Source: Deltaproteobacteria bacterium
GTDB lineage: Bacteria; Desulfobacterota; JADFXK01
NCBI GenBank assembly: GCA_015233055.1
Contig: JADFYN010000007.1
Coordinates: 574-40,461, forward strand
DNA length: 39,888 nt
Direction of reading: 5' to 3'
Numbering within the stretch: the stretch's first letter is position 1; the number at the start of each line of letters is the position of its first letter. Made by a program: the position numbers and the translations under genes. The notes beneath the pieces are model-generated. The model saw nothing but the letters and a program-made list of their open reading frames with translations, was not told the DNA's origin and searched no databases. Of this stretch, positions 7,322-26,784 are shown piece after piece.

Positions 7322-7487
7322 GGAGTCTTAATTATGTAGTCATTCTATAATATTCTCACCTATCCCGATATGATTAATATTTGCGGGACCGATAAAAGAA
7401 AATCCCAAACCTTGTTCTCATTAACCCCTTAGGGGTTATCCACTAAAAGGTGTTCAGTGATCGACCGTTAACTCCCGCCAATTCGGA

Positions 7488-7530
7488 TGCTTGTGCCATA
7501 TTCCCTTCCGGGCGTTGAATGGCACAAGCA
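7488..7530 (+). promoter_or_regulatory. Strong stem-loop in the fhs 5' leader
   Basis: TGCTTGTGCCAT (7488-7499) / ATGGCACAAGCA (7519-7530): 12-bp perfect stem with a 19-nt loop. Confidence 0.6.
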
Positions 7531-7615
7531 GATTCGTGCCGGGTGCCATTTCTTTTCGGGCGGCCGACCCTGGATGCTGATTGCCCAAAAAAATATTTTT
7601 AAGGAGGATTATTTA

Positions 7616-9379
7616 ATGGCTCTTGATCCAACCAAACATGCTGATTGGGAAATCGCAGAAGACGCAGAAAAGTCAATGAAGAAGGTCTATCAACTGGCTG
7701 AAGAGCTGGGCCTGACCCAAGACGAACTTATTCCTCACGGCCACTATGTAGCCAAAGTGGATTTTGCTAAGGTTCTGGATCGGTTGAAGGACAAACCAGA
7801 TGCCAAATACATCGACGTGACGGCTATCACCCCCACCCCCCTGGGCGAAGGCAAAAGCACCTCCTCCATGGGCTTGATCGAAGGCATGGGCAAAAGAGGC
7901 CTGAAGGTCATCGGCGCCATCCGGCAACCATCGGGCGGCCCCACCATGAACATTAAAGGATCTGCGGCAGGCGGCGGTTTGGCCCAATGCGTTCCTCTGA
8001 CCCCCTTCTCTTTAGGCCTGACCGGCGACATCAACGCCATCATGAATGCGCACAACCTGGGCATGGTCGCCATGACCTCCCGGATGCAACACGAATTCAA
8101 TTACAATGACGCCCAGATGGCCAAACGCGGTTTGCGTCGCCTGGATATGGATCCCCGCAACGTGGAAATGGGCTGGATCATCGACTTCTGCGCCCAATCC
8201 TTAAGAAACATCATCATCGGTCTCGGCGGCAAGATGGACGGCCTCATGATGCAGTCTAAGTTCGGCATCGCCGTTTCCTCCGAGATTATGGCTATCCTGG
8301 CCGTGTCCACCAGCTTGAAAGACATGCGGGAAAGAATGGGCAAGATCGTCGTCGCCTACTCCAAGGCGGGCGACCCGGTCACCACTTCCGATCTCGACGT
8401 AGCCGGCGCCATGACTGCCTGGATGGTCGAGGCTCTGAACCCCAACCTGCTGCAAACCATCGAAGGACAGCCGGTATTCGTCCACGCCGGTCCTTTCGCC
8501 AATATCGCCATTGGTCAGTCCTCCATCGTCGCCGACAGAGTCGCCTTGAAACTGGCTGACTATCATGTCACCGAAAGCGGCTTCGGCGCCGACATCGGCT
8601 TTGAGAAGTTCTGGAACTTGAAGTGCCGTTATTCCGGCTTGAAGCCCCACTGCGCCGTGATCGTGGCCACCATCCGCGCCCTGAAGTGCCATGGCGGCGG
8701 GCCCAGAGTCGTCCCCGGCCAACCCATGGATCCGGCCTACAAAGAAGAAAACGTCGGCTTGGTCGATAAAGGCTGCGCCAACCTGGTTCACCACATCAAC
8801 ACCGTCCGTAAAGCCGGCATCAACCCGGTGGTCTGCATCAACGCCTTCTACACGGATACCAAAGACGAAATCGCTGTGGTTAAGAAACACGCTGAAGCCG
8901 CCGGCGCCCGCGTGGCCGTGTCCAAACACTGGGAAAAAGGTGGCGACGGCGCCCTGGAATTTGCCGACGCGGTTGTTGACGCCTGTAACGACAAGACCGA
9001 TTTCAAGTTCCTGTACGACCTGTCCATGCCCTTAAGAGACCGCATCGCCTTGATCTGTAAAGAAGTTTACGGTGGCGAAGGCGTGGAATACTCCCCCGAG
9101 GCTTTGGCTAAGGCCCAAAAAATTGAGAAGGACCCCGTCTTGTCTCAACTGGGCACCTGCATGGTCAAGACCCACCTGAGCCTGTCTGCTGACCCGACGA
9201 TCAAAGGCGTGCCGAAGGGCTTTAAGCTGTTCGTCCGTGACATCCTGACCTACGGTGGAGCCGGCTTTGTCGTGCCCGTCGCCGGAGCCATCAGCCTGAT
9301 GCCCGGAACCGCTTCCGACCCGGCCTATCGCCGCATCGATGTCGACGTGGAAACAGGAAAAGTCAAGGGCGTGTTCTAA
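7616..9379 (+). CDS. fhs: Formate--tetrahydrofolate ligase
   Basis: ORF 7487..9379; the ATG at 7616 ([18 protein letters not shown]) is preceded by AAGGAGGATT. Contains [20 protein letters not shown] and [19 protein letters not shown]. Confidence 0.97.
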
Positions 9380-9412
9380 CATCCGCTCCAGACAATAAAT
9401 AGCTAAAACATT

Positions 9413-9444
9413 TCAGGGGGCCTTCGGGTCCCCTGATTTTTTTT
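9413..9444 (+). terminator. Rho-independent terminator of fhs
   Basis: TCAGGGGGCC-TTCG-GGTCCCCTGA followed by T8. Confidence 0.85.
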
Positions 9445-9559: not shown

Positions 9560-9683
9560 GGAAATAAATGAAGCCGGGTCTGGGGGGGGACCCGGCTTGC
9601 AGAAAGGAGGAAAGATGATCTTAACTTAATGGAGGTTTATTAATTTTATTATAACCCGCTTAGGGATTTTTTGTTGCCTTGCC
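9560..9683 (-). ncRNA. Putative sigma54-dependent small RNA 'B' (paralog of sRNA A)
   Basis: Starts at the predicted +1 of a sigma54 promoter with GGCAAG; contains AUCUUUCCUCCUUUCUG (anti-SD). Ends in AAGCCGGGUCCCCCCCCAGACCCGGCUU hairpin (9571-9598) followed by a U-rich CAUUUAUUU tail. Confidence 0.65.
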
Positions 9684-9693
9684 TTTTTTAATA

Positions 9694-9709
9694 TGCAATT
9701 TACTTGCCA
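9694..9709 (-). promoter_or_regulatory. Sigma54 promoter (-24/-12) of sRNA B
   Basis: Minus-strand TGGCAAGTAAATTGCA versus consensus TGGCACGNNNNTTGCW: single deviation (C6->A). Confidence 0.78.
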
Positions 9710-9800: not shown

Positions 9801-9884
9801 AATAAAAAAGCCGGACTACCAAAGGCAGCAACCGGCTTCTTTATAAGGAGAAAAGAGTTATGAAACGGGGGGGGTAAAGCTTGC
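9801..9884 (-). ncRNA. Putative sigma54-dependent small RNA 'A'
   Basis: Minus strand GGCAAGCUUUACCCCCCCCGUUUCAUAACUCUUUUCUCCUUAUAAAGAAGCCGGUUGCUGCCUUUGGUAGUCCGGCUUUUUUAUU: starts at the predicted +1, ends in a hairpin plus U6. Confidence 0.72.
9803..9838 (-). terminator. Rho-independent terminator of sRNA A
   Basis: AAGCCGG...CUGCC-UUU-GGUAG...CCGGCUU followed by U-rich tail on the minus strand. Confidence 0.75.
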
Positions 9885-9894
9885 CTTCTTATGA

Positions 9895-9910
9895 TGCAAT
9901 TAGCTTGCCA
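9895..9910 (-). promoter_or_regulatory. Sigma54 promoter (-24/-12) of sRNA A
   Basis: Minus-strand TGGCAAGCTAATTGCA: same single deviation from consensus as the promoter at 9694-9709. Confidence 0.78.
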
Positions 9911-10064: not shown

Positions 10065-10190
10065 GTAAAAAAAATTATACACACCTGTCCTAAACCGTCC
10101 TCACCACCAGGTTAACATATTAAAAACACGCAACATATAGTTCAGTACAAAAAACTTTACATCAATCCGCTAATGTAAAAAAAACTTTAC
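10065..10190. promoter_or_regulatory. Triplicated 16-nt site, candidate enhancer-binding (UAS) cluster
   Basis: GTAAAAAAAATTATAC (10065-10080), GTACAAAAAACTTTAC (10145-10160), GTAAAAAAAACTTTAC (10175-10190). The third is a perfect GTAAA-N6-TTTAC inverted repeat. Confidence 0.6.
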
Positions 10191-10300: not shown

Positions 10301-11677
10301 TTAACTTAGTGAAATATTGTATTTTTTTATCTTATACCCCATTAGGCCGCGGGAAATTCCCAAGGCCTCGGCCGCCTGTGACTGGACGAACTTAGCTTTT
10401 TTTAAGGCATTACGGATCATCATCTCTTCCATCTGCTCCAGGGCATCCTGAAGTTTGGTATGCGGAGCCAGTAATTGATCAATAGCAGATTCTCCCCGGG
10501 TTTTATCCTGGAATTCCTCAGGGAGGTCAACCACAGTCAACTCCGACCCGCCACAGAGGATCACCGCCCGCTCGATCACATGCTCCAGCTCACGCACATT
10601 GCCCGGCCAATCGTATTCATAAATTCTTCTTAACGCTTCGGGTGAGATGCTATAGACGCTTTTGTTTTCATCCATCGCGTATTTTTTAATGAAATGATTA
10701 ACCAGTAACAATATATCGTCAGGACGATCCCTTAAAGGGGGCACAACTATATGAACTACGTTCAACCGATAAAAAAGATCCTCCCGGAAAGTTCCTTTTT
10801 TAATCAAGGTTCTCAGGTCCTTATTTGATGCTGCGACAATCCGGACATCGACTTTCAGCGTTCGGGTACCACCCACCCGTTCAAACTCCATCTCTTGCAA
10901 AACCCGAAGCAATTTGACCTGGAGTTGAGTTGACATTTCACCAACTTCGTCGAGAAAGAGAGTGCCTTTGTCGGCCAACTCAAAACGGCCTTTTTTGCCG
11001 GCGATGGCTCCGGTGAAAGAGCCCTTTTCGTGTCCGAATAATTCGCTTTCCAGCAATGACTCCGTAAGTGCCGTGCAATTCACGGAAATGTAAGGTTTGT
11101 CACGCCGGCGACTGTTAAAATGGATTGACCGGGCGATAAGTTCCTTTCCCGTACCGGATTCACCGATGATCAGCACCGAGGCCTTGGTGTCGGCAACCTT
11201 CCGGATTAGTTCGTAGGTCTTCTGCATGGGCTTGCTCTTGCCCACCAGATTGTCAAACCCATATTTCTGACTCAGTTCTTCACTTAATAAGCGTTTTTCC
11301 TTGACCAGGGCGGACACCTCAAGAGCCTTGCCGACCCGTAACATCAACTCGTCATTACTATACCCGCCCTTGGTCAAATAGTCGTAAGCACCTTTCTTAA
11401 CCGCTTCGACCGCAGTATCGATGGTCCCGTCCGCGGTAAGTACGATGACCGGCAGACCGGGGTTCCTTTTCTTGGCTTCTTCTAAAAGCTGTAAACCGTC
11501 CATACCGGGCATTTTTAGATCGGTGATGACCAGATCAACTTCGTGTTCTTTAAGAACCTGCAAAGCCAGGATGCCGCTTTCCGCCGTCAAGATTTCATAA
11601 TCTCTCTCCTCTGAGAGAAGAGCTTCCAAATTGATTAGATAATTCTTTTCATCATCTACAACCAGGATGGTTTCCAT
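10301..11677 (-). CDS. NtrC-family sigma54-dependent response regulator
   Basis: 458 aa: receiver (VVDDEKNY...DLVITDLKMPGMDG), AAA+ Walker A GESGTGKE, sigma54-contact loop GSFTGA, C-terminal Fis-type HTH. Confidence 0.95.
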   Translation of the reverse strand: METILVVDDEKNYLINLEALLSEERDYEILTAESGILALQVLKEHEVDLVITDLKMPGMDGLQLLEEAKKRNPGLPVIVLTADGTIDTAVEAVKKGAYDYLTKGGYSNDELMLRVGKALEVSALVKEKRLLSEELSQKYGFDNLVGKSKPMQKTYELIRKVADTKASVLIIGESGTGKELIARSIHFNSRRRDKPYISVNCTALTESLLESELFGHEKGSFTGAIAGKKGRFELADKGTLFLDEVGEMSTQLQVKLLRVLQEMEFERVGGTRTLKVDVRIVAASNKDLRTLIKKGTFREDLFYRLNVVHIVVPPLRDRPDDILLLVNHFIKKYAMDENKSVYSISPEALRRIYEYDWPGNVRELEHVIERAVILCGGSELTVVDLPEEFQDKTRGESAIDQLLAPHTKLQDALEQMEEMMIRNALKKAKFVQSQAAEALGISRGLMGYKIKKYNISLS

Positions 11678-11717: not shown

Positions 11718-13205
11718 TTAAATTACCTGCTTAGGGATGCCGGCTTCACCGGGCAACTCGGCCAAAGGAAAGCTAATAATCACCTTTGTCCCCATGGGAG
11801 AAGATTCGGCGACCGGGCTTTGGAAATCAATGACTGCGGCATGGCTGTCCAGGATATTCTTAACAATGGACAGCCCCAGTCCGGTCCCCTTTTCTTTAGT
11901 AGTAAAAAAAGGGTCACAAATTCTCTTCATCATGTCCGGATCGATTCCTTCTCCGGTATCAGCAATGCACACTTCAAACAAGCTGTTCTGATTATCATTT
12001 TTGACGGTGGTGGTCACGTTGATCCGGCCACCTGAGGGCATGGCGGCCACGGAATTGTTAAAAATATTAAGAAACGCCCGATATAGCAGGTCCGAGTCCC
12101 CCATGATATTAACACCGCCACCAACATATTTCTTTTCAAGAATAATTTGTCTAAGATCCATTTCCGAAGCTAACTGAAACAGATTCTTATCCAAGACATT
12201 TTCGACGTTGCAGGGGGCCAGCCGTGGCGTTTGAGGCCGGGCAAAGTCCAGAAATTCCGTAACGATATTATTCAACCGCCTGGATTCTTCAACAATAACC
12301 TCGGCCAGCCGATTGTTTGGCTCGTACTTGTTCATCTTCTTACCAAGCAGTTCCGCCGTACTACGAATAATTCCCAGAGGCGTCCGAATCTCATGGGCGA
12401 CTCCGGCCACCATCCGCCCCAGACCGGCCAGGCGTTCGGCTTGATTAAGCTGCTCCTCTAATTTCTTACGTTCCTGTGATCTCCGTTCGATGATTGTCTC
12501 GCCTCGTTTCACGATTTGCCGCAACACGATGAAAACCATGATCATAATTCCAAGCGAAACGCCGGAAATCAGGTATTGATTCTTGACCACATCTTCATAC
12601 TCAGTGGACAAATCTTGGGTTATCTCGAAAACGCCCAGGATGGGTCCCGTCAAGCTATAAAAAGCTTTTTCGGCGCGTAACGGAATATATGTAATTAACT
12701 TCTTCTCCTGGACAACGGTGATGAAATCAAACCACATCGAGCCGCCTTTAGAGACCAGGCGAGATGAATGCCGCCCTTTCAACGCCACCTGATAATCAAG
12801 ACCACCCTTGTTTTCTTGACCAACCAGCGCCTTGTCGGTACTATAAACAATGCTCGCCTTTAAATCAAAAATCGTCACGCGATCAATATGAAAACTGTGA
12901 ATAGTGGCCCGGACAATATTATCGAGCCGTTCATATTGAACTTCCTCCCGGAGACTGATTTCCCCAAATTTGAACACAGTCGGAACAATAAACTGCAAAA
13001 AGACCTGATGGTTTAGATTTTCGGCCAAAAGTAGGGCATACCCTTCAGAACGTTCCAAAATGGAAATCCTGGCCCGATGGCTCAGAATCCAGGTCAAGAT
13101 AATGGCCCCCAGCATGATCACAATGAAGCTGGTGAAAGAAAAATACTTGACCAGGGCGAATGGTTTGACGGCATCGACGCCGACCTGTATCTTTGCAAAT
13201 CGCAT
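11718..13205 (-). CDS. Membrane-bound sensor histidine kinase with periplasmic sensor domain
   Basis: 495 aa: N-terminal TM segment, ~170 aa extracytoplasmic region, second TM, H-box GVAHEIRTPLGIIR, N/G boxes (DTGEGID, GTGLGLSIVK). Confidence 0.93.
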   Translation of the reverse strand: MRFAKIQVGVDAVKPFALVKYFSFTSFIVIMLGAIILTWILSHRARISILERSEGYALLLAENLNHQVFLQFIVPTVFKFGEISLREEVQYERLDNIVRATIHSFHIDRVTIFDLKASIVYSTDKALVGQENKGGLDYQVALKGRHSSRLVSKGGSMWFDFITVVQEKKLITYIPLRAEKAFYSLTGPILGVFEITQDLSTEYEDVVKNQYLISGVSLGIMIMVFIVLRQIVKRGETIIERRSQERKKLEEQLNQAERLAGLGRMVAGVAHEIRTPLGIIRSTAELLGKKMNKYEPNNRLAEVIVEESRRLNNIVTEFLDFARPQTPRLAPCNVENVLDKNLFQLASEMDLRQIILEKKYVGGGVNIMGDSDLLYRAFLNIFNNSVAAMPSGGRINVTTTVKNDNQNSLFEVCIADTGEGIDPDMMKRICDPFFTTKEKGTGLGLSIVKNILDSHAAVIDFQSPVAESSPMGTKVIISFPLAELPGEAGIPKQVI

Positions 13206-13633: not shown

Positions 13634-13691
13634 AACGATACACCCCGGGGGGGGAAACATTAACTGAGATCAGTGAAAGGAGAAAAGGATT

Positions 13692-14972
13692 ATGAGAAGA
13701 GCTATTTGTATCATGGCCGTCCTGTTCGGGTTTGTTTTTTTATTGACCCAGCAGGTTATCGCTGATGACGTCCAGCCACCAGTCAAATCTTCGGCGGGTA
13801 AATCCCTAACCGATGTGCTCATGGAAAAGGGCGTTATTTCCAAAGATGAAGCTAAGGAAATTAAGAAGGACGAAGAAAAAGGCCTCAACCTGCCCAAAGG
13901 CTTGCAAGGAGTTTCGTTGGGCGGAACTTATTTTATCAATTATTTTATCCGGAACTATGACTCCGGCTCCAAAGCCAATGACAACGGGTTCTCTCTAGAC
14001 CGGGCTTACCTCACTTTGGGCAAGGAATTCACCCCCTGGTTCTCGACCCGAGCCACTGTTGACGTTACCTATGATAAAAAACGGGGCAGCACAGGTACCG
14101 ACGCCAGTGAAATCGGCTGGGAAGTCCGCATCAAGTATGCATACGGCCTGTTTGATTTCAAGAATCTATTCGGTATGGAAATGCTCGGCGACCAATTCCG
14201 GCTCCAGAGTGAAGTCGGCCTGGTCCACAACGCTTCCGATAACTATGACGACTCCCTTTGGCCATATCGGGTGGAAGGCAAAAACTTCCTGGATCGTCAC
14301 AACATCATGTCCACCTCCGACTACGGCGCCAACATGCACCTGACCTTAGGCGAGATGGACAAAGAATTTAAGGAAAGAGTTGAAAGCAAGTATGCCTCCC
14401 GTTGGGGCGGTGTGTATTTCGGTGTATACAACGGCGCCGGGTTTGACCGCAACGAACGGAACGACACCAAGTTCTTTGAAGGTCAACTCTGGATTCGGCC
14501 GCTCAACATGTTTGACTGGGGCAAAGGGATCCGGTTGGCAGCCCAATACGGCAACGGCGAAAGCGATGCTAAGTTTGCCGTCCCGGCCGGTTCTACTGCT
14601 TATCCCCAATGGAATATTCAGCTTTACACCGCGTCCTATCAACATGAGTTGTTTACCATCTTCGGTCAATACTACGCCGGGAAAGGCACCAAAACGAGCA
14701 CGGAAGAAAAGAACCGAACTGGCTGGGATGTGGCCGGTTTTGTTAAGATGCCCTTCTGGCCTTGCCTGCGCCTCTTTGCCAAATATGACGACTACACTCC
14801 CGATGACGACGCCAGAACCAGCGCCGAGGAAAAAACTCAAATATACGGTATTTCTTACGACTTAGCCAAGGGCTTGATGGTCTATACCGCTATGGAAAGA
14901 ACCAACTATGACCTCAAGAGCGCCGGTCCGGACACCAGTCTGTACCAGATGGGCCTCAAGGCTGAATTCTAA
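13692..14972 (+). CDS. Porin-like outer-membrane beta-barrel protein
   Basis: 426 aa with signal peptide (MRRAICIMAVLFGFVFLLTQQVIA), short N-terminal SLTDVLMEKGVISKDEAKEIKK segment, alternating aromatic beta-barrel pattern and C-terminal F (YQMGLKAEF). Confidence 0.85.
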   Translation: MRRAICIMAVLFGFVFLLTQQVIADDVQPPVKSSAGKSLTDVLMEKGVISKDEAKEIKKDEEKGLNLPKGLQGVSLGGTYFINYFIRNYDSGSKANDNGFSLDRAYLTLGKEFTPWFSTRATVDVTYDKKRGSTGTDASEIGWEVRIKYAYGLFDFKNLFGMEMLGDQFRLQSEVGLVHNASDNYDDSLWPYRVEGKNFLDRHNIMSTSDYGANMHLTLGEMDKEFKERVESKYASRWGGVYFGVYNGAGFDRNERNDTKFFEGQLWIRPLNMFDWGKGIRLAAQYGNGESDAKFAVPAGSTAYPQWNIQLYTASYQHELFTIFGQYYAGKGTKTSTEEKNRTGWDVAGFVKMPFWPCLRLFAKYDDYTPDDDARTSAEEKTQIYGISYDLAKGLMVYTAMERTNYDLKSAGPDTSLYQMGLKAEF

Positions 14973-15301: not shown

Positions 15302-16063
15302 TTAGAACGGAGAGCCGAAGGCCGCCTTGATCAGCTCTCGATTCAGCCGGGCAATGTTGGTGATCGAAATCTCTTTGGGACATACGGCTTCACATTCAGC
15401 CTCGTTGGAACAGGCGCCAAAGCCCAGTTCATCCATTTTCCGGATCATGGCCTGGACCCGTTTCGCCGCTTCAGGCCGTCCTTGAGGTAGCAGGGCCAAC
15501 TGCGACACCTTGGCGCCGACGAAGAGCATGGCCGAGGCATTGGGACAGGCCGCCACACAGGCGCCACAACCGATACAAGCGGCCGCATCCATGGCCAATT
15601 CCGCAGTTTCTTGAGAAATCAGAATAGCATTGGCTTCGGGAACCGCTCCGGTATTGGCCGATATATAGCCACCCGTCTGGATGAGTTGATCAAACGCGCT
15701 CCGGTCCACAGCCAGGTCTTTGATGACCTTAAATGCCCGAGAACGCCACGGTTCAATAACCAGGGTATCGCGGTCGGCAAAATGCCGCATGTGCAACTGG
15801 CACAAAGTCGTGGCTTTCTGGGGGCCGTGAGGCACGCCGTTCACCACTGACCCACACATACCACAGATACCTTCCCGACAGTCATGGTCAAAGGCAATCG
15901 GGTCTTTCCCTTCCACACTAAGCCGTTCATTGACCACATCCAGCATTTCTAAAAAGGACATGTCGGTTGAAATATCCTTCGCTTGATACGTCTCAAAGGC
16001 GCCTTTGGCCTCAGACCCCGGTTGGCGCCAGACCTTTAGCGTCAGGTTGATGGTCTTGCTCAC
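15302..16063 (-). CDS. sdhB: Succinate dehydrogenase/fumarate reductase iron-sulfur subunit
   Basis: 253 aa with [29 protein letters not shown] and [11 protein letters not shown] Fe-S motifs; 4-bp overlap with the flavoprotein gene. Confidence 0.95.
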
Positions 16064-17973
16064 TTGTAACTCCTTGTCGCCAGGTGGACGTTTTCAAAGG
16101 CCAACGGTTCCTTATGCAGCACAGGCTCCTTCCCTACCCCCTGGAATTCCCAGGCCGCCACGTAGCAATAGTTCTCGTCGTCTCGTTTGGCCTCGTGATC
16201 TTCGGTCTGGTAAGCCTCATTATAATGGCAGCCGCAAGATTCTTTCCGGTTCAGGGCATCATTCAGCATGAGTTCCCCGAATTCGAGAAAATCAGCCACC
16301 CGCCCGGCCCGCTCCAGGGTCTGGTTGAATTCGCCGGACGACCCGGTTACAGTTACGTTCTCCCAGAATTGTTGGCGAAGTTCCGGAATCATTTGCTTGG
16401 CCTTCAGCAAGCCGGCTTCGTTTCTGGCCATGCCGCAATATTCCCACAAAATCCGGCCTAGTTCCCGGTGAAAATCATCAACCGTCCGCTTCCCCTTGAT
16501 CGACAACAACTTAGTCACCTGGGTCGAAATTTCCTGAACCGCATCCTTAAAGGCAGGATGACTGTCTTTGACCTCGCCCAGCGGCATACCGGCCAGATAA
16601 CCACCGACAGTATAAGGAATAACGAAGTAACCGTCATTAAGCCCCTGCATCAAGGCGCTGGCCCCTAAGCGGTTGGCCCCATGGTCGGAAAAATTGGCCT
16701 CGCCCAGGACAAAAAGGCCCGGAATAGTAGACATAAGATTATAATCAACCCACAAGCCGCCCATAGCGTAATGGATAGCCGGGTAAATCATCATGGGCGT
16801 TTCATAGGGATTCTGACCGACTATCCGTTCATACATCTGGAACAGATTCCCGTATTTTTTATGGATGGTATCCCGGCCGTCCCGTTTGATGGCATCGGCG
16901 AAATCCAGGTAGACGGCCAGGCCGGTATCACTCACACCCATGCCCATATCACAGACATTCTTGGCGTTTCGGGAAGCCACATCGCGCGGCACCAGGTTCC
17001 CGAAGCTGGGATATCTCTCCTCCAGATAATAGAACCGCTCGGATTCCGGAATGCTGTCAGGAGACCTTTTGTCTCCTTTCTTTTTGGGCACCCAGACGCG
17101 GCCGTCGTTCCGAAGGCTTTCACTCATCAAAGTCAGTTTAGACTGGTAATCCCCATGCACCGGAATACAGGTGGGGTGGATTTGAGTAAAGCAGGGATTG
17201 GCGAACAACGCTCCTTTTTTGTGGACCCGCCAGGCTGCGGTGACGTTGGATCCCATGGCGTTGGTGGACAGGAAAAAGGCGTTTCCATAGCCTCCGGTAG
17301 CCATTACCACGGCATGGGCGGCATGGCATTCGATCTCCCCGGTGATCAGGTTACGGACCACGATCCCCCTGGCCCGGCCATCAACCATGACCAGATCAAG
17401 CATTTCCCGCCTCGGGAACATTTTGACTTTGCCATTGGCCACCTGCCGCATCATGGCACTGTAAGCACCCAGCAGCAACTGCTGACCGGTTTGCCCGCGA
17501 GCGTAAAAGGTTCGGGAAACCTGAGCGCCGCCAAAAGATCGATTAGCCAGCAAGCCGCCATAGTCTCGAGCAAAGGGGACTCCTTGAGCCACACACTGAT
17601 CGATAATATTGACGCTCAATTGGGCCAGTCGGTAGACATTGGCTTCCCTTGACCGGAAATCGCCTCCCTTGACCGTATCATAAAACAGGCGCCAGACGCT
17701 GTCCCCATCGTTGGTATAATTCTTGGCCGCGTTAATACCGCCCTGGGCGGCAATACTATGGGCCCGGCGAGGGCTGTCCTGGATACAGAAGGTTTTGACG
17801 TTGTAACCCAACTCGGCCAGGGAAGCCGAAGCCGAACCGCCGGCCAGGCCGGTGCCGACCACGATGATTTCATACTTTTTCTTGTTGGCCGGGTTGACCA
17901 GTTTTAATTCAAACCGGTGTTTATCCCACTTCTCTGGAAGCGGGCCGCCCGGAACTTTGGCATCAAGCTTCAT
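16060..17973 (-). CDS. sdhA: Succinate dehydrogenase/fumarate reductase flavoprotein subunit
   Basis: 637 aa; [59 protein letters not shown]. Confidence 0.96.
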
Positions 17974-18073
17974 AATATGACCTCATGACACTGACATAGA
18001 AAGGCGCGCCTCGCGGCCGGACGTCCCCAACCCGCTGAAACTTTGAGGACGATGTCGATCTGCGGGTACGCGT

Positions 18074-18712
18074 TTACGACAATGAAAGATAAATGGGCAG
18101 GCACCCGAAGCCGAATCCGACCAGCAGGCTAAAAACCAATCCGACCTTCTTGATAACCGGCATGTACTTGGGATGGTTGGCACCGATTGTCTGGAACGCA
18201 CTCCAAAAACCGTGTTTGACGTGAAAGGCCGCCGCAATCATGGCGATGAGGTAAAAAATCACATAACCCGGACTGGTAAAGGTAGTATGGACCAAATAAT
18301 AGACGTCCTTGCCACCGCGGTCGGCAAAATGGAAGGTGATCAGATGGATAATGATGAACACCAGGAGAAAAAGACCGGTATACGGCATAATCGCCGAACT
18401 CAGGGTTCGGCCTCCGGCATTCTTTTTCACGGCGTACCCCACCGGCCTGGCCGTCAGGTTCCCTATAAACAACCAGATACCAAAACAAATGTGACAGACG
18501 GCTAAGACCAATAATCCCAATTCAGCCATCAAGATCAAGGCGCCCAATGAATGTAGGGATTCCGCATACGACACAAAAGCCTTCGGGCCTTTAAAAATGG
18601 TCAGGTTCCCAGCCAGATGGGAAACCAGGAAAAGACAGAAACTCAAACCGGTCACAGCCATAATCAGTTTTTTCCCCACGGAACAAGTGAGGGTGCGGAT
18701 AATCCAGTTCAT
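18074..18712 (-). CDS. sdhC: Succinate dehydrogenase/fumarate reductase cytochrome b subunit (b558-type)
   Basis: 212 aa, about five TM segments with conserved His; directly upstream of sdhA. Confidence 0.9.
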   Translation of the reverse strand: MNWIIRTLTCSVGKKLIMAVTGLSFCLFLVSHLAGNLTIFKGPKAFVSYAESLHSLGALILMAELGLLVLAVCHICFGIWLFIGNLTARPVGYAVKKNAGGRTLSSAIMPYTGLFLLVFIIIHLITFHFADRGGKDVYYLVHTTFTSPGYVIFYLIAMIAAAFHVKHGFWSAFQTIGANHPKYMPVIKKVGLVFSLLVGFGFGCLPIYLSLS

Positions 18713-21914: not shown

Positions 21915-23888
21915 TTAATCAAACAAGTAACTAACTTTAATATATAACTCCCGGTCACGACCGGGCACGAGGCTGCGGTAACCCCGGGTTTCATAAGAGG
22001 TGTTCAGTATATTATTCAGGTAAATTCCTGTCTTGAGATTCTTCATACCCAAAGATTCGGATGTTATGGCCAGGTCTCCTTTGAGATATGGGGCCAAGTC
22101 GTGATCATTGGATACGATATAGCTTGGGATATCTCGTCTGCCTACGTATAACCACCGGAGTTCTCCATTAAGGGGAGAAGTGAGACGGGCCTTTACTCCG
22201 AAATTGGCCAGACCTCCCGGAACGAGATTGACATTCTCCTCAATATAGTAATCCAGCGGCGTTCCAGTGCTCCACGGTGGATGGGCCTTTAGTCCGCCGT
22301 CATCGAGTAAAGAAATATTGGTGAACAACTCCACCTTTTTCCAGGGCCAATAATTTAAGGATAATTCCGTCCCCTTGACTGAAACGTTTTCCCGCACCAG
22401 GCTGTCGGGTGTTTCATGGAGCTGCTCGACGTCATAATAAAACGGGTTTATCCGGATGGAAAACACGTCTGTCTTGGTATAACCCAACTCCAGGTCAAAG
22501 CTTTCCAGCCTCTCCGGGGTAACATTGGTGTCATAGGAGTATACCGTCAGGGCCGGGGTCCGGAATGACCTCCCATAAAGCGCTTTAAAATGGAATCCGG
22601 CGCCGATTTGCCAGCTCAGGCCCAGCCTGGGATTGAACACCCCGTCAAATTTGCTGTGTTTGTCAAAACGAACTCCTCCGGTCAATTCGATATCTTTGAC
22701 GGGCTGATATTTATCCTGCATATAGATTGAAAAGAGATCTGAATCAAAGCCGGGATACAGACTGACACCGCGAAATACCGGAAAGTTGGGCAGGCTCAAA
22801 TCAAAGGTAGTGTCTGAACCTCTATTGTGCTTATAAGTCAAACCCAGGGAAGCAATATTCCGATCCAAACTAGTGATGTCCAGCCGCGCGTCCGTCCCGT
22901 ATTGAGAATTGTCCTGGTGCAGTAGATAGTAATCGGTTTGCTCCCGGTTCTCGAAATACTCCGCAAAACCTCGGACGGTCAATTGGGCCGGCCCTAAGTC
23001 ATTGGTGTACTGAGTTTGAAAGAAAGAAAACGGCGTCTGCCTGACTCCGCTATAAGCTATTGGAAAAAATATAATCCCGCGGTCGTTGAAATGATTCTCA
23101 ACTGAGGAAAACCGGCCTGACATCTCCAGATGATCTCCCAATTTCATCTTCATGTAAAACTCGCGAAAGACGTCGTCGGAATTACCTGTGGCTGTTTGGG
23201 GAAAGCCTTCGGTGGAATTATAACTCCCGGAAATAAACAAGTCGACGTTTTTCTCTTTATATCCCGAGGTCACACTGTTCAACCAGGTCGCTTGAGGCCC
23301 GGCCATGACACTCACCTCTGTGCCGTTCAGGTTGGCCCCATTTCTGGTGACCAGATTGATCACCCCGGAAAAGGCATTGGCACCCCAGAGGGCGGATCCG
23401 GGTCCTCGGACAATCTCGATCTTTTCGATGGTGGCCAAAGACAGGTCATAACCGCGGGGATAGTTCTTGGCGGACGTATCATTGGCCAACGGTACGCCGT
23501 CCATGATAACCAGAAATGAGTCAGGAATACCTCGGAGGTAAATCCGATTCTTTCTTTCGTCCTGTTCGACGAAAAAGCCGGGGACGCGCTCTAGAACCTC
23601 AGCCAATGTTTTTAGCCCTGATTGCTCGATCTCTTTACGTCCGATAACGGTCACCGCGGCGGGAGCCTTTTCGGTCGGTTCAAGGAAGCCTGAAGCAGCC
23701 GAGACCATATGAAGATGCTCCCCAATGAACATGACCTTGGTTTCACCTATCAGATCATCAATACCTTCAGTCCGGGAGCCCCCATTAGCCGTTCCCAGGC
23801 CGACTCCGATAAGGGCCATTCCCAATAGAATGATCACCGCATCCACACAGGCGGCCCTAATTAGAGTATCTGATCTCCGGAGGAACAT
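21915..23888 (-). CDS. TonB-dependent outer-membrane receptor
   Basis: 657 aa; plug domain (VTVIGRKEIEQSGLKTLAEVLERVPGFFV, GPGSALWGANAFSGVINLVTR), barrel ending VSYLFD. Confidence 0.94.
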   Translation of the reverse strand: MFLRRSDTLIRAACVDAVIILLGMALIGVGLGTANGGSRTEGIDDLIGETKVMFIGEHLHMVSAASGFLEPTEKAPAAVTVIGRKEIEQSGLKTLAEVLERVPGFFVEQDERKNRIYLRGIPDSFLVIMDGVPLANDTSAKNYPRGYDLSLATIEKIEIVRGPGSALWGANAFSGVINLVTRNGANLNGTEVSVMAGPQATWLNSVTSGYKEKNVDLFISGSYNSTEGFPQTATGNSDDVFREFYMKMKLGDHLEMSGRFSSVENHFNDRGIIFFPIAYSGVRQTPFSFFQTQYTNDLGPAQLTVRGFAEYFENREQTDYYLLHQDNSQYGTDARLDITSLDRNIASLGLTYKHNRGSDTTFDLSLPNFPVFRGVSLYPGFDSDLFSIYMQDKYQPVKDIELTGGVRFDKHSKFDGVFNPRLGLSWQIGAGFHFKALYGRSFRTPALTVYSYDTNVTPERLESFDLELGYTKTDVFSIRINPFYYDVEQLHETPDSLVRENVSVKGTELSLNYWPWKKVELFTNISLLDDGGLKAHPPWSTGTPLDYYIEENVNLVPGGLANFGVKARLTSPLNGELRWLYVGRRDIPSYIVSNDHDLAPYLKGDLAITSESLGMKNLKTGIYLNNILNTSYETRGYRSLVPGRDRELYIKVSYLFD

Positions 23889-23902: not shown

Positions 23903-25264
23903 TTATTTTAGGTTCTTTAGTTTGATCCGAAATTTTCCCCGGCTCAAACCCAACAGCTCGGCCGCCCGGGATTGGTTGTACATGCTCATCTTTAAGGCCT
24001 GCTCGATCAATCGCCTCTCAATTGCCTCTATATCAAGCCCCTCAGGGGGAATGGTCATGGATTCCTCGGCCATCGCCGGGCGGCCGGGTTTAGATCGGTT
24101 TTGGATAAATGACAGCACCTTTTCGTCTATCCGTCCGTCTGAAGACAAAATCGCTGCCCGCTCAATGGCGTTTTCCAATTCTCTCACATTGCCGGGCCAG
24201 GTGTGGTTGGTCAAGATGCGGCGCGATTCATCAGTCAAATATCCCTTAGGTCGAGCCTTGTCTTGGGTAAACTTCTTAACAAAATATTCAGCCAGCGGCA
24301 CGATGTCCGCCGGTCGTTCCCGCAACGGGGGAATATTAATAGGAAACACATTTATCCTGTAGAATAGATCCTCTCGGAATTGCCCGGCCGCCACCATGTC
24401 GGTCAGGTTCCTGTTTGTTGCGCAGACAACCCGAACATCAGTCCGCCGCGCTTTGGCCCCACCCACCCGTTCAAATTCCTTTTCCTGAAGCACCCGCAAG
24501 ACCTTAGCCTGGGCATTGGCATCTAAGTCGCCAATCTCATCTAGAAAAATAGTCCCGCCCTGAGCCAACTCAAACTTACCCGGCTTAGTCTTGTCGGCCC
24601 CGGTAAAGGCCCCTTTCTCGTGGCCGAACAATTCACTCTCCACCAGGTTGGGGCTGATTGCAGCACAGTTTATGGCCAACAAGGGTCGATTGGCCCGGGG
24701 GCTGTTAAAATGGATGGCCTTGGCAATAAGTTCTTTGCCCACCCCGCTCTCACCCAGAATCAAGGCCGTGGTGTCGGCACTTCTGGAAACCAGGGCGGCT
24801 TGTTTAAGGATTTCCAGCATATTCTCTGACATAGCAATAATATTAGAAAAATCAGCCCCTTTGGCTAATTCGTCCTTCCATATCCGCCTTTCTTCCGCCA
24901 GCCTGGAAAAGGCCATGCCGCGCCGCACGGCCACCAACACTCTTTCCTCATCAAAGGGTTGGGTAATATAATCCAAGGCCCCGGCTTGCATCGCCGACAC
25001 GGCTGAACTAACCGAACCAAAGGCCGTGATCAACACCACCGGCAAATCAGCGTCCTTGGCTTTGATGGCCTTGAGCAGTTCCATGCCATCCATCACCGGC
25101 ATCTTGATATCGGTGACCACCAGGCCGATTTCACCCCGTTCCAGCTTTTGCAATGCCTCGTGGCCATGCTCTGCCGTGTCCACTTCAAACCCATCCCCTT
25201 CCAGGATGATCTTGAGAATATGCCGCATCTTCTTTTCATCTTCGACCACCAGTACTTTGCTCAT
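23903..25264 (-). CDS. NtrC-family sigma54-dependent response regulator
   Basis: 453 aa; receiver VVEDEKKM, AAA+ GESGVGKE, GAFTGA loop, Fis-type HTH. Confidence 0.95.
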   Translation of the reverse strand: MSKVLVVEDEKKMRHILKIILEGDGFEVDTAEHGHEALQKLERGEIGLVVTDIKMPVMDGMELLKAIKAKDADLPVVLITAFGSVSSAVSAMQAGALDYITQPFDEERVLVAVRRGMAFSRLAEERRIWKDELAKGADFSNIIAMSENMLEILKQAALVSRSADTTALILGESGVGKELIAKAIHFNSPRANRPLLAINCAAISPNLVESELFGHEKGAFTGADKTKPGKFELAQGGTIFLDEIGDLDANAQAKVLRVLQEKEFERVGGAKARRTDVRVVCATNRNLTDMVAAGQFREDLFYRINVFPINIPPLRERPADIVPLAEYFVKKFTQDKARPKGYLTDESRRILTNHTWPGNVRELENAIERAAILSSDGRIDEKVLSFIQNRSKPGRPAMAEESMTIPPEGLDIEAIERRLIEQALKMSMYNQSRAAELLGLSRGKFRIKLKNLK

Positions 25265-26784
25265 AGGGACACCATTGTTTCCGGTTCAGGAATTACGTGA
25301 TGGATGTCCTCCATCGCCTGACCGTCTTCCTGATTGTTAGCTAAGGGTAACCTCAAAATAAATTTGGCCCCATGAGGATAATTTTGAGCGACCTCAATAG
25401 TCCCTTGATGGTAATCAACGACCTTTCTGACCAGGGCCAATCCCAAACCTGCCCCCTTCTCTTTAGTGGTAAAAAATGGATCGAAGATCTTCTCCGTCAA
25501 CTCCGGCGACAACCCGGCCCCGGTGTCCGCAAACGAGATCGTGGCCTGACCGTCTTCATGAAACACCTTAATGGTGACCCGGCCCTTTTCTCCGGTAATG
25601 GCCTGGTAGGCATTATACATTAAATTCACCACGGCCTGGGTCAACGCCCCCCGGTCACCCATGACCAGGCAGGGCTCGCCTTCTGCCTCTACATTCAGGT
25701 CAATGGTCCGGCCTTCGTCCGTCACCGGAAAAACCATCGCGGCGACCTGGTCCAGTATAAAGTTCAGGTCCACCGGCTTCCATTCCTTCGGGCCGGGGCG
25801 AGAAAAAGCCAAGAATTCCTCAACCATATGGTTGAGCCTTTTAACCTCGTCCGTGATGTATTCAGCCATGGTCAGGCGCAACGGAGCATCTTCCTTATGT
25901 TTCAACAGGATACCCAAAGAACCGTGAATAATGCCCAGGGAATTCTTTAGCTCGTGGGCGATGACCGAGGAGAAGCGGCCCAATTCAGCCATTTTCTCTT
26001 TTTCCATCAACCGCTGGTACGTCTCCCGGAGTTCCCTTTCTTTCATGATCAAGGCATCGACCATCCGATTAAAAGACATGGTCAGCCGACCCACTTCGTC
26101 CCGACTGGAGACATTTAGGCTGCTGATCCAGTGGCCGTCAGCGATTTCAGAAGTAGCCCGGGCCAGTCTGACGACCGGTCTGAGCATCAACCTAGCCACC
26201 CAAAAGGCCGCCAGGCCAAAAATAACACCCACCGACGCCGCCAGATATAGAATTTTGAGCCGGAGACGACTTAACGCGTCCAAGACCTCAGCCTTGGAAA
26301 AGGTCACTTCGACGGACCCCAGAACTTTTGAAGAATTATGGGGCGGATTATTCGCGGTGATGTTTCGGTCAGCGTTATCGCCCTCAAAAAACAAATTTAT
26401 TCTATCAGTTACCTCACCTTTAGTGGGTCGCATGGTCACCGAGCGAACAATTTTTCTTCTTGGTTCTTGAGCCTTGGCGAAAGAGCCTTTTTGCTCCAGC
26501 AACACATCTCCCTGGTTGTCAAGGATCCGGACCTCAATGACATCTCCTTCACGGGCCAAATTTTCAGCCAAAGGAGCAATCAGGGATTTATTGCCGATTA
26601 ACAACCCCAGTTCCGCATTCAAGGCCAGATTCGTCACTAATGCTTCACCCCTTTTTTCGAATTCAGCACTTAAGACGGCTTCCGAATGATGCAGCACCAG
26701 GGCCGTATAAATGGCCGACAAAATCAAAGTCATCACAACTACCCCGAGCGATGTTTTTATGGTTAGACTCAAGCCTTTAATCAT
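25261..26784 (-). CDS. Sensor histidine kinase (HAMP + HisKA + HATPase)
   Basis: 507 aa; two TM segments, HAMP-like RPVVRLARATSEIADG, H-box VIAHELKNSLGIIHG, DTGAGLS, GAGLGLALVRK; ATGA overlap with the regulator. Confidence 0.93.
   Translation of the reverse strand: MIKGLSLTIKTSLGVVVMTLILSAIYTALVLHHSEAVLSAEFEKRGEALVTNLALNAELGLLIGNKSLIAPLAENLAREGDVIEVRILDNQGDVLLEQKGSFAKAQEPRRKIVRSVTMRPTKGEVTDRINLFFEGDNADRNITANNPPHNSSKVLGSVEVTFSKAEVLDALSRLRLKILYLAASVGVIFGLAAFWVARLMLRPVVRLARATSEIADGHWISSLNVSSRDEVGRLTMSFNRMVDALIMKERELRETYQRLMEKEKMAELGRFSSVIAHELKNSLGIIHGSLGILLKHKEDAPLRLTMAEYITDEVKRLNHMVEEFLAFSRPGPKEWKPVDLNFILDQVAAMVFPVTDEGRTIDLNVEAEGEPCLVMGDRGALTQAVVNLMYNAYQAITGEKGRVTIKVFHEDGQATISFADTGAGLSPELTEKIFDPFFTTKEKGAGLGLALVRKVVDYHQGTIEVAQNYPHGAKFILRLPLANNQEDGQAMEDIHHVIPEPETMVSL

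Follow-up and report, generated by a model that had tools for sequence, protein, structure and literature searches.

Three dyad sites between an NtrC-family regulator gene and two predicted sigma54-dependent small RNAs with putative porin targets in a deltaproteobacterium

Organization of the locus

We analyzed a stretch of 39,888 nucleotides (hereafter, the window) from contig JADFYN010000007.1 of a Deltaproteobacteria bacterium (assembly GCA_015233055.1), and in particular a locus where three 16-bp inverted repeats lie between the gene of an NtrC-family response regulator and two predicted small RNAs (sRNAs), a placement already recognized in the first-pass annotation of this sequence. Along the minus strand, the histidine kinase and regulator genes are followed by the three sites, promoter A, sRNA A, promoter B and sRNA B. 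The features, including a predicted target with its ribosome-binding site (RBS), are as follows.

11718 to 13205, minus strand: histidine kinase, probable partner of the regulator, with a homolog upstream of the regulator in orthologous loci
10301 to 11677, minus strand: NtrC-family response regulator with receiver, sigma54-activating AAA+ and Fis-type helix-turn-helix domains (Pfam), predicted to bind the sites
10175 to 10190, unstranded: predicted upstream activating site 3, GTAAAAAAAACTTTAC, perfect GTAAA-N6-TTTAC
10145 to 10160, unstranded: predicted upstream activating site 2, GTACAAAAAACTTTAC, one mismatch to GTAAA-N6-TTTAC
10065 to 10080, unstranded: predicted upstream activating site 1, GTAAAAAAAATTATAC, one mismatch to GTAAA-N6-TTTAC, farthest from the regulator gene
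9895 to 9910, minus strand: sigma54 promoter A, TGGCAAGCTAATTGCA, perfect TGGCA-N6-TTGCA
9803 to 9884, minus strand: predicted sRNA A, an unpaired 41-nt leader and then a terminator hairpin
9845 to 9863, minus strand: anti-RBS core of sRNA A, whose complement, AAGGAGAAAAGNNTTATGA, has one exact genome match outside the sRNA gene, at the porin RBS
9694 to 9709, minus strand: sigma54 promoter B, TGGCAAGTAAATTGCA, perfect TGGCA-N6-TTGCA
9562 to 9683, minus strand: predicted sRNA B, with a C8-loop terminator hairpin (9571-9598) at its end
9601 to 9616, minus strand: C/U-rich core of sRNA B, from sequence
13677 to 13695, plus strand: predicted target of sRNA A, the RBS and ATG of the porin gene
13692 to 14972, plus strand: porin-like gene, a predicted silencing target of the sRNAs (Porin_4, E = 4.6e-5, below the Pfam cut-off)

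All three sites fall inside 126 bp of one intergenic region, and the copies themselves, as well as the distances of 80 and 30 bp between their starts, are as first described. The site centers lie ~188 (site 1), ~268 (site 2) and ~298 bp (site 3) from the predicted start of sRNA A and ~389, ~469 and ~499 bp, respectively, from that of sRNA B, the starts (9884 for A, 9683 for B) having been derived from promoter spacing. These ranges, 188-298 bp for A and 389-499 bp for B, agree with the distances to the two promoters given earlier and place the dyads 100-500 bp upstream of a -24/-12 promoter, as expected of NtrC-family sites. By contrast, the suggestion that the copies are separated by near-integral helical turns has to be dropped, since 80 bp correspond to ~7.6 turns (30 bp to ~2.9) and the spacing differs in orthologous loci, where site pairs are 90 bp apart in L089 and 76 bp in L095 and L096. 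An IHF site between the candidate enhancers and the promoter is not claimed, as the three one-mismatch matches found there are about the chance expectation.

Within the window, GTAAA-N6-TTTAC with at most one mismatch occurs only at these three sites. The shuffled window yields a mean of 0.76 such matches, with three or more in 5 of 100 shuffles; hence the count of three, taken alone, is only mildly unusual and constitutes weak evidence. The pattern GTAWARTTTTTTNTAC, a 16-nt consensus derived from the three sites themselves and therefore fitted to them, has exact matches at these places only in the 4.05-Mb draft genome (assembly 79.65% complete). The first-pass annotation had also proposed a genome scan for the site near other sigma54 promoters. 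The near-matches did not adjoin the remaining perfect sigma54 promoters, and a wider regulon in the source genome was discarded.

All three sites are kept, with identical 30- and 80-bp spacing, in a genome of the same genus (L007/L088) whose regulator is 96% identical. Site 1 is identical there, and sites 2 and 3 differ in one base each. Thus, 46 of 48 site positions are conserved, compared to 406 of 557 (73%) in the unannotated background (Fisher p = 1e-4) and 116 of 152 in the immediate flanks (p = 0.0015). The sRNAs are conserved at 77 of 82 (A) and 117 of 122 (B) positions.

Promoters A and B are the only perfect matches to TGGCA-N6-TTGCA in the window, and they are among 16 perfect matches to TGGCA-N6-TTGCW in the genome. 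Each appears to stand directly upstream of a non-coding, terminator-ended unit, as expected of a sigma54-dependent sRNA. A small protein in place of sRNA A was considered and rejected, as there is no ATG-initiated frame; an Rfam search of the sRNAs matched no family. One array probably serves both promoters, because there is no further copy of the site between them. Convergent toward sRNA B is a formate-tetrahydrofolate ligase gene (7487-9436) with its own strong terminator (9413-9436), an arrangement kept in L007.

The sigma54-contact loop of the regulator is GSFTGA, a variant of GAFTGA. A homolog of the kinase (40-49% identity) was found upstream of the regulator in all 20 orthologous loci examined. 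Elsewhere in the window, a second NtrC-family regulator (23903-25264) and a HAMP histidine kinase (25261-26784) adjoin a TonB-dependent receptor gene (21915-23888).

Orthologous loci and the recognition helix

Among 395 genomes of the phylum, the regulator has a match at E <= 1e-148 in 93. We identified 37 loci where an orthologous regulator gene is followed, 124-390 bp past its stop codon, by a sigma54-type promoter with no or one mismatch, in most cases none, and then by a short RNA that is rich in C and U and, with few exceptions, has a recognizable terminator. Conservation of the motif upstream of orthologous sRNA loci had been set beforehand as the test that could refute an enhancer role. 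When it was run, 21 of the 37 loci had a G...C 16-bp palindrome (at least seven of eight positions paired) between regulator stop and promoter, against 0.56 +/- 0.75 of 37 in shuffles, with a maximum of three.

From clade to clade, the sequence of the palindrome changes along with the Fis-type recognition helix of the regulator next to it:

KSL[IM]QHK: GTACAAnnnnTTGTAC
KN[LV][LFI]KYK: GTAAAA..TTTTAC
RHLMHYK: GTTAAAATATTTTAAC
KSGLNQK: GTTCAAAATTTTGAAC
KSGLSQK: GTTCACAATTGTGAAC
KSGLSKK: GTTTCCA..TGGAAAC
RGLMGYK (regulator of the window): the dyad GTAAA-N6-TTTAC, shorter-armed and below the threshold of seven in eight

The fit is imperfect, as KSLLQYK goes with GTACAA in L089 and with GTTCAA in L180 and L182, and the covariation was noticed in the data rather than derived from a formal statistic. 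Still, because the palindrome tracks the recognition helix, it supports binding by the adjacent regulator and may be regarded as the best sequence evidence that these are its sites. The three sites are real, and their reading as an enhancer array for the sRNA promoters, put forward in the first-pass annotation, appears well supported by the ortholog palindromes and their covariation with the helix.

Loci with the sRNA cluster strongly on the regulator tree, yet five to nine gains or losses are required, and there are well-defined regulator clades with no RNA beside the gene. In two genomes (G253 and G294, loci L167 and L168), the RNA seemingly lies apart from the regulator gene. These loci, as well as L169 (G104), are sRNA-like units that have a perfect sigma54 promoter and are not directly beside a regulator gene, the ortholog being elsewhere in the genome; in L167, GTTCAAATATTTGAAC is found upstream of the promoter. 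In L200 (G272), the promoter and sRNA are present in two tandem copies, 194 and 646 bp past the regulator stop. L160 and L179 (G207 and G251) have a second type of C/U-rich RNA with a sigma54 promoter and a terminator, conserved between the two, in genomes that also have the regulator-linked RNA. Finally, the combined pattern TGGCAN6TTGCWN{25,55}CCTCCTTT has 22 matches in 20 of the 395 genomes and none in the reversed control, although not all of the 22 are sRNAs and several resemble coding sequence.

Porin leaders as predicted targets

A C/U-rich core at the base of the terminator is common to the members of the sRNA family and comes in clade-specific versions. We scanned whole genomes with the complements of these cores, some of the patterns being degenerate, and found 17 exact matches at RBSs outside the sRNA genes; L270, with a doubtful TTG as the sole start (77 aa), is not included in the count, and the matches, some from closely related genomes, are not all independent. 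They are spread over seven families (f1, f9, f36, f38, f49, f50 and f68). Porin-like genes follow in 14 of the 17, namely the window porin, L258, L262, L263, L276, L336, L337, L340, L366, L367, L372, L373, L375 and L384, where the call for L336, L337, L340, L372 and L375 comes from the signal peptide, length and resemblance. Two more matches precede genes for other exported proteins, a lipoprotein with a von Willebrand-like domain below the cut-off (L259) and a DUF4198 protein (L370). The last one (L379) precedes a gene that by sequence encodes HU, and the matching core is not the genome's own. In the three genomes of f50, searched as a prospective test after the porin hypothesis had been formed, the sequence that exactly complements each genome's own core, sRNA gene aside, lies on a porin start in every case.

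Uninterrupted complementarity to the sRNA of the same genome extends to 27 nt in G072, 20 nt in G106, 19 nt in G369 and G350, and 16 nt in G102, G183 and G330, whereas the 99th percentile of own-core complementarity among sampled RBS regions is 9-13 nt. These stretches of 16-27 nt run past the Shine-Dalgarno sequence into the start codon and the first codons. In the window, predicted sRNA A could pair with the porin RBS over 11 nt and, after two mismatches, with UUAUGA including the AUG; by itself, the 11-nt match is at the 99th percentile. The C8 runs of the sRNA A leader (9866-9873) and of the sRNA B terminator loop (9567-9590) and a G8 run in the porin leader (13641-13660) may allow the RNA a second contact with its target. 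A one-mismatch site of the sRNA A core complement precedes a gene whose ortholog in the same genus encodes an OmpA-family lipoprotein.

The window porin has an 89% identical ortholog in L007, where the leader is conserved too; a sequence search of PDB with this porin found no relative. Adjacency of a porin gene to the locus is not a general rule, as 20 other loci did not show it. In the window, the porin gene is followed by genes of succinate dehydrogenase/fumarate reductase subunits (15302-18712).

Proposed circuit, alternatives and related systems

We consider it probable that the neighboring NtrC-type regulator acts via the three sites on the sigma54 promoters, and that the resulting sRNAs block porin translation. 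The membrane histidine kinase would phosphorylate the regulator, which would then bind the 16-bp dyads and contact sigma54-RNA polymerase at promoters A and B by looping, so that two short non-coding RNAs would be transcribed. The exposed C/U-rich core may pair with the RBS of outer-membrane porin mRNAs, in some genomes with the start codon too, and this pairing would block translation and lower porin synthesis. The input signal might be an envelope or porin-related cue, although this is a guess.

The target part of this proposal has an alternative in which the sites are enhancers and the main role of the sRNAs lies elsewhere, in the control of other mRNAs or in the titration of an RNA-binding protein, the porin matches being due to a generic anti-Shine-Dalgarno core. 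Indeed, C/U-rich cores generally resemble the anti-Shine-Dalgarno sequence, and hence matches at RBSs are expected; moreover, non-envelope genes appear among core complements with one or two mismatches, and duplex energy is unspecific. Nevertheless, we deem this unlikely, given that exact matches with clade-specific cores precede porin-like genes in 14 of 17 cases and in several families, and that complementarity extends well beyond the Shine-Dalgarno sequence. Even less likely is binding of some other regulator to the sites, such as another NtrC-family protein of the genome, with their adjacency to the regulator gene being incidental. Several NtrC-family regulators are encoded in the source genome (eight matches at E <= 1e-100), and binding by the adjacent one is a prediction, but it is the helix of the adjacent regulator that the palindrome type tracks across clades. 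Chance similarity of A-tracts without any regulatory role, in intergenic DNA rich in AT, could yield three matches in the window, as some shuffles did; however, the clustering of the sites, their above-background conservation with exact spacing and the equivalent palindromes at orthologous loci make it hardly credible.

Several observations weigh against the circuit of regulator, sRNAs and porins as we propose it. The dyads of the window are shorter-armed than most ortholog palindromes, and many regulator orthologs have no adjacent sRNA. The porin calls are weak Pfam hits, some below the cut-off, or in several cases come from the signal peptide, and in G010, G047 and G158 the porin leader differs in at least one base from the genome's own sRNA core. 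RNAduplex energy does not put the window porin first, a nitroreductase gene scoring better; as a ranking of targets this energy is uninformative, because pairing of C/G runs dominates it. The whole-genome search with the core of sRNA B gave no convincing match besides its own gene, and thus no convincing target. Finally, the entire case, from sites, promoters and RNA anatomy to conservation, helix-palindrome covariation and complementarity, is built from sequence, with binding, transcription and expression as predictions.

Similar control logic operates in LuxO-Qrr, CbrB-CrcZ and QseF(GlrR)-GlmY, where an NtrC-family response regulator and sigma54 drive sRNAs. Their targets and modes of action differ from those predicted for the window sRNAs, and we found no description of these systems as porin-directed in the literature consulted. 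For QseF, sites have been reported in the glmY promoter region (PMC8745638). In Desulfovibrio vulgaris, where the sigma54 regulome includes four non-coding RNAs, the NtrC-family response regulator DVU0679 has as its target, by DNA affinity purification with microarrays (DAP-chip), Dv_sRNA2, encoded just downstream of the regulator gene and of unknown function in the source paper (PMC3333781; PMC4641369). The layout matches that of the window locus; the contact loop is GAYTGS in DVU0679 as opposed to GSFTGA, and both the porin link and the helix-dyad covariation are new for the window system. In Myxococcus xanthus, the sRNA gene pxr likewise lies downstream of the gene of a sigma54-dependent response regulator, nla19, and is apparently transcribed from a sigma54 promoter (PMC5568312). 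The triple stem-loop fold of the Pxr family is absent from sRNA A, with its unpaired leader and single hairpin, the terminator.

As to target logic, the predicted repression resembles that by MicA, RybB (PMC1804206) and VrrA (PMC2628432), which lower outer-membrane protein synthesis by acting on the respective mRNAs. These sRNAs are sigmaE-dependent, whereas those of the window have sigma54-type promoters and an adjoining NtrC-type two-component system. Porin control is also known for Burkholderia NcS25; upstream of its gene, unlike at the window locus, no sigma54 motif was found (PMC10117139). Sigma54-driven sRNAs are known and porin-silencing sRNAs are known, while no report of their combination was found in the open-access literature.

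What the analysis adds is a predicted porin-silencing function and a co-evolving code. More broadly, and tentatively, Thermodesulfobacteriota may widely use a sigma54/NtrC two-component system with an anti-RBS sRNA to control their porins, in a circuit that would be the counterpart of the sigmaE-MicA/RybB envelope response and whose recognition helix, DNA dyad, sRNA core and porin leader would evolve together; we hold this to be nearly as probable as its opposite. If true, each clade rewrites the code and keeps the wiring. The present analysis proposes a concrete, testable target class, outer-membrane porins, for a group of sRNAs with Dv_sRNA2-like architecture in many families of the phylum. 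The matched recognition helices and DNA dyads provide a natural series from which the binding code of Fis-type domains could be read, and the circuit may be a route by which these anaerobes tune the permeability of the outer membrane.
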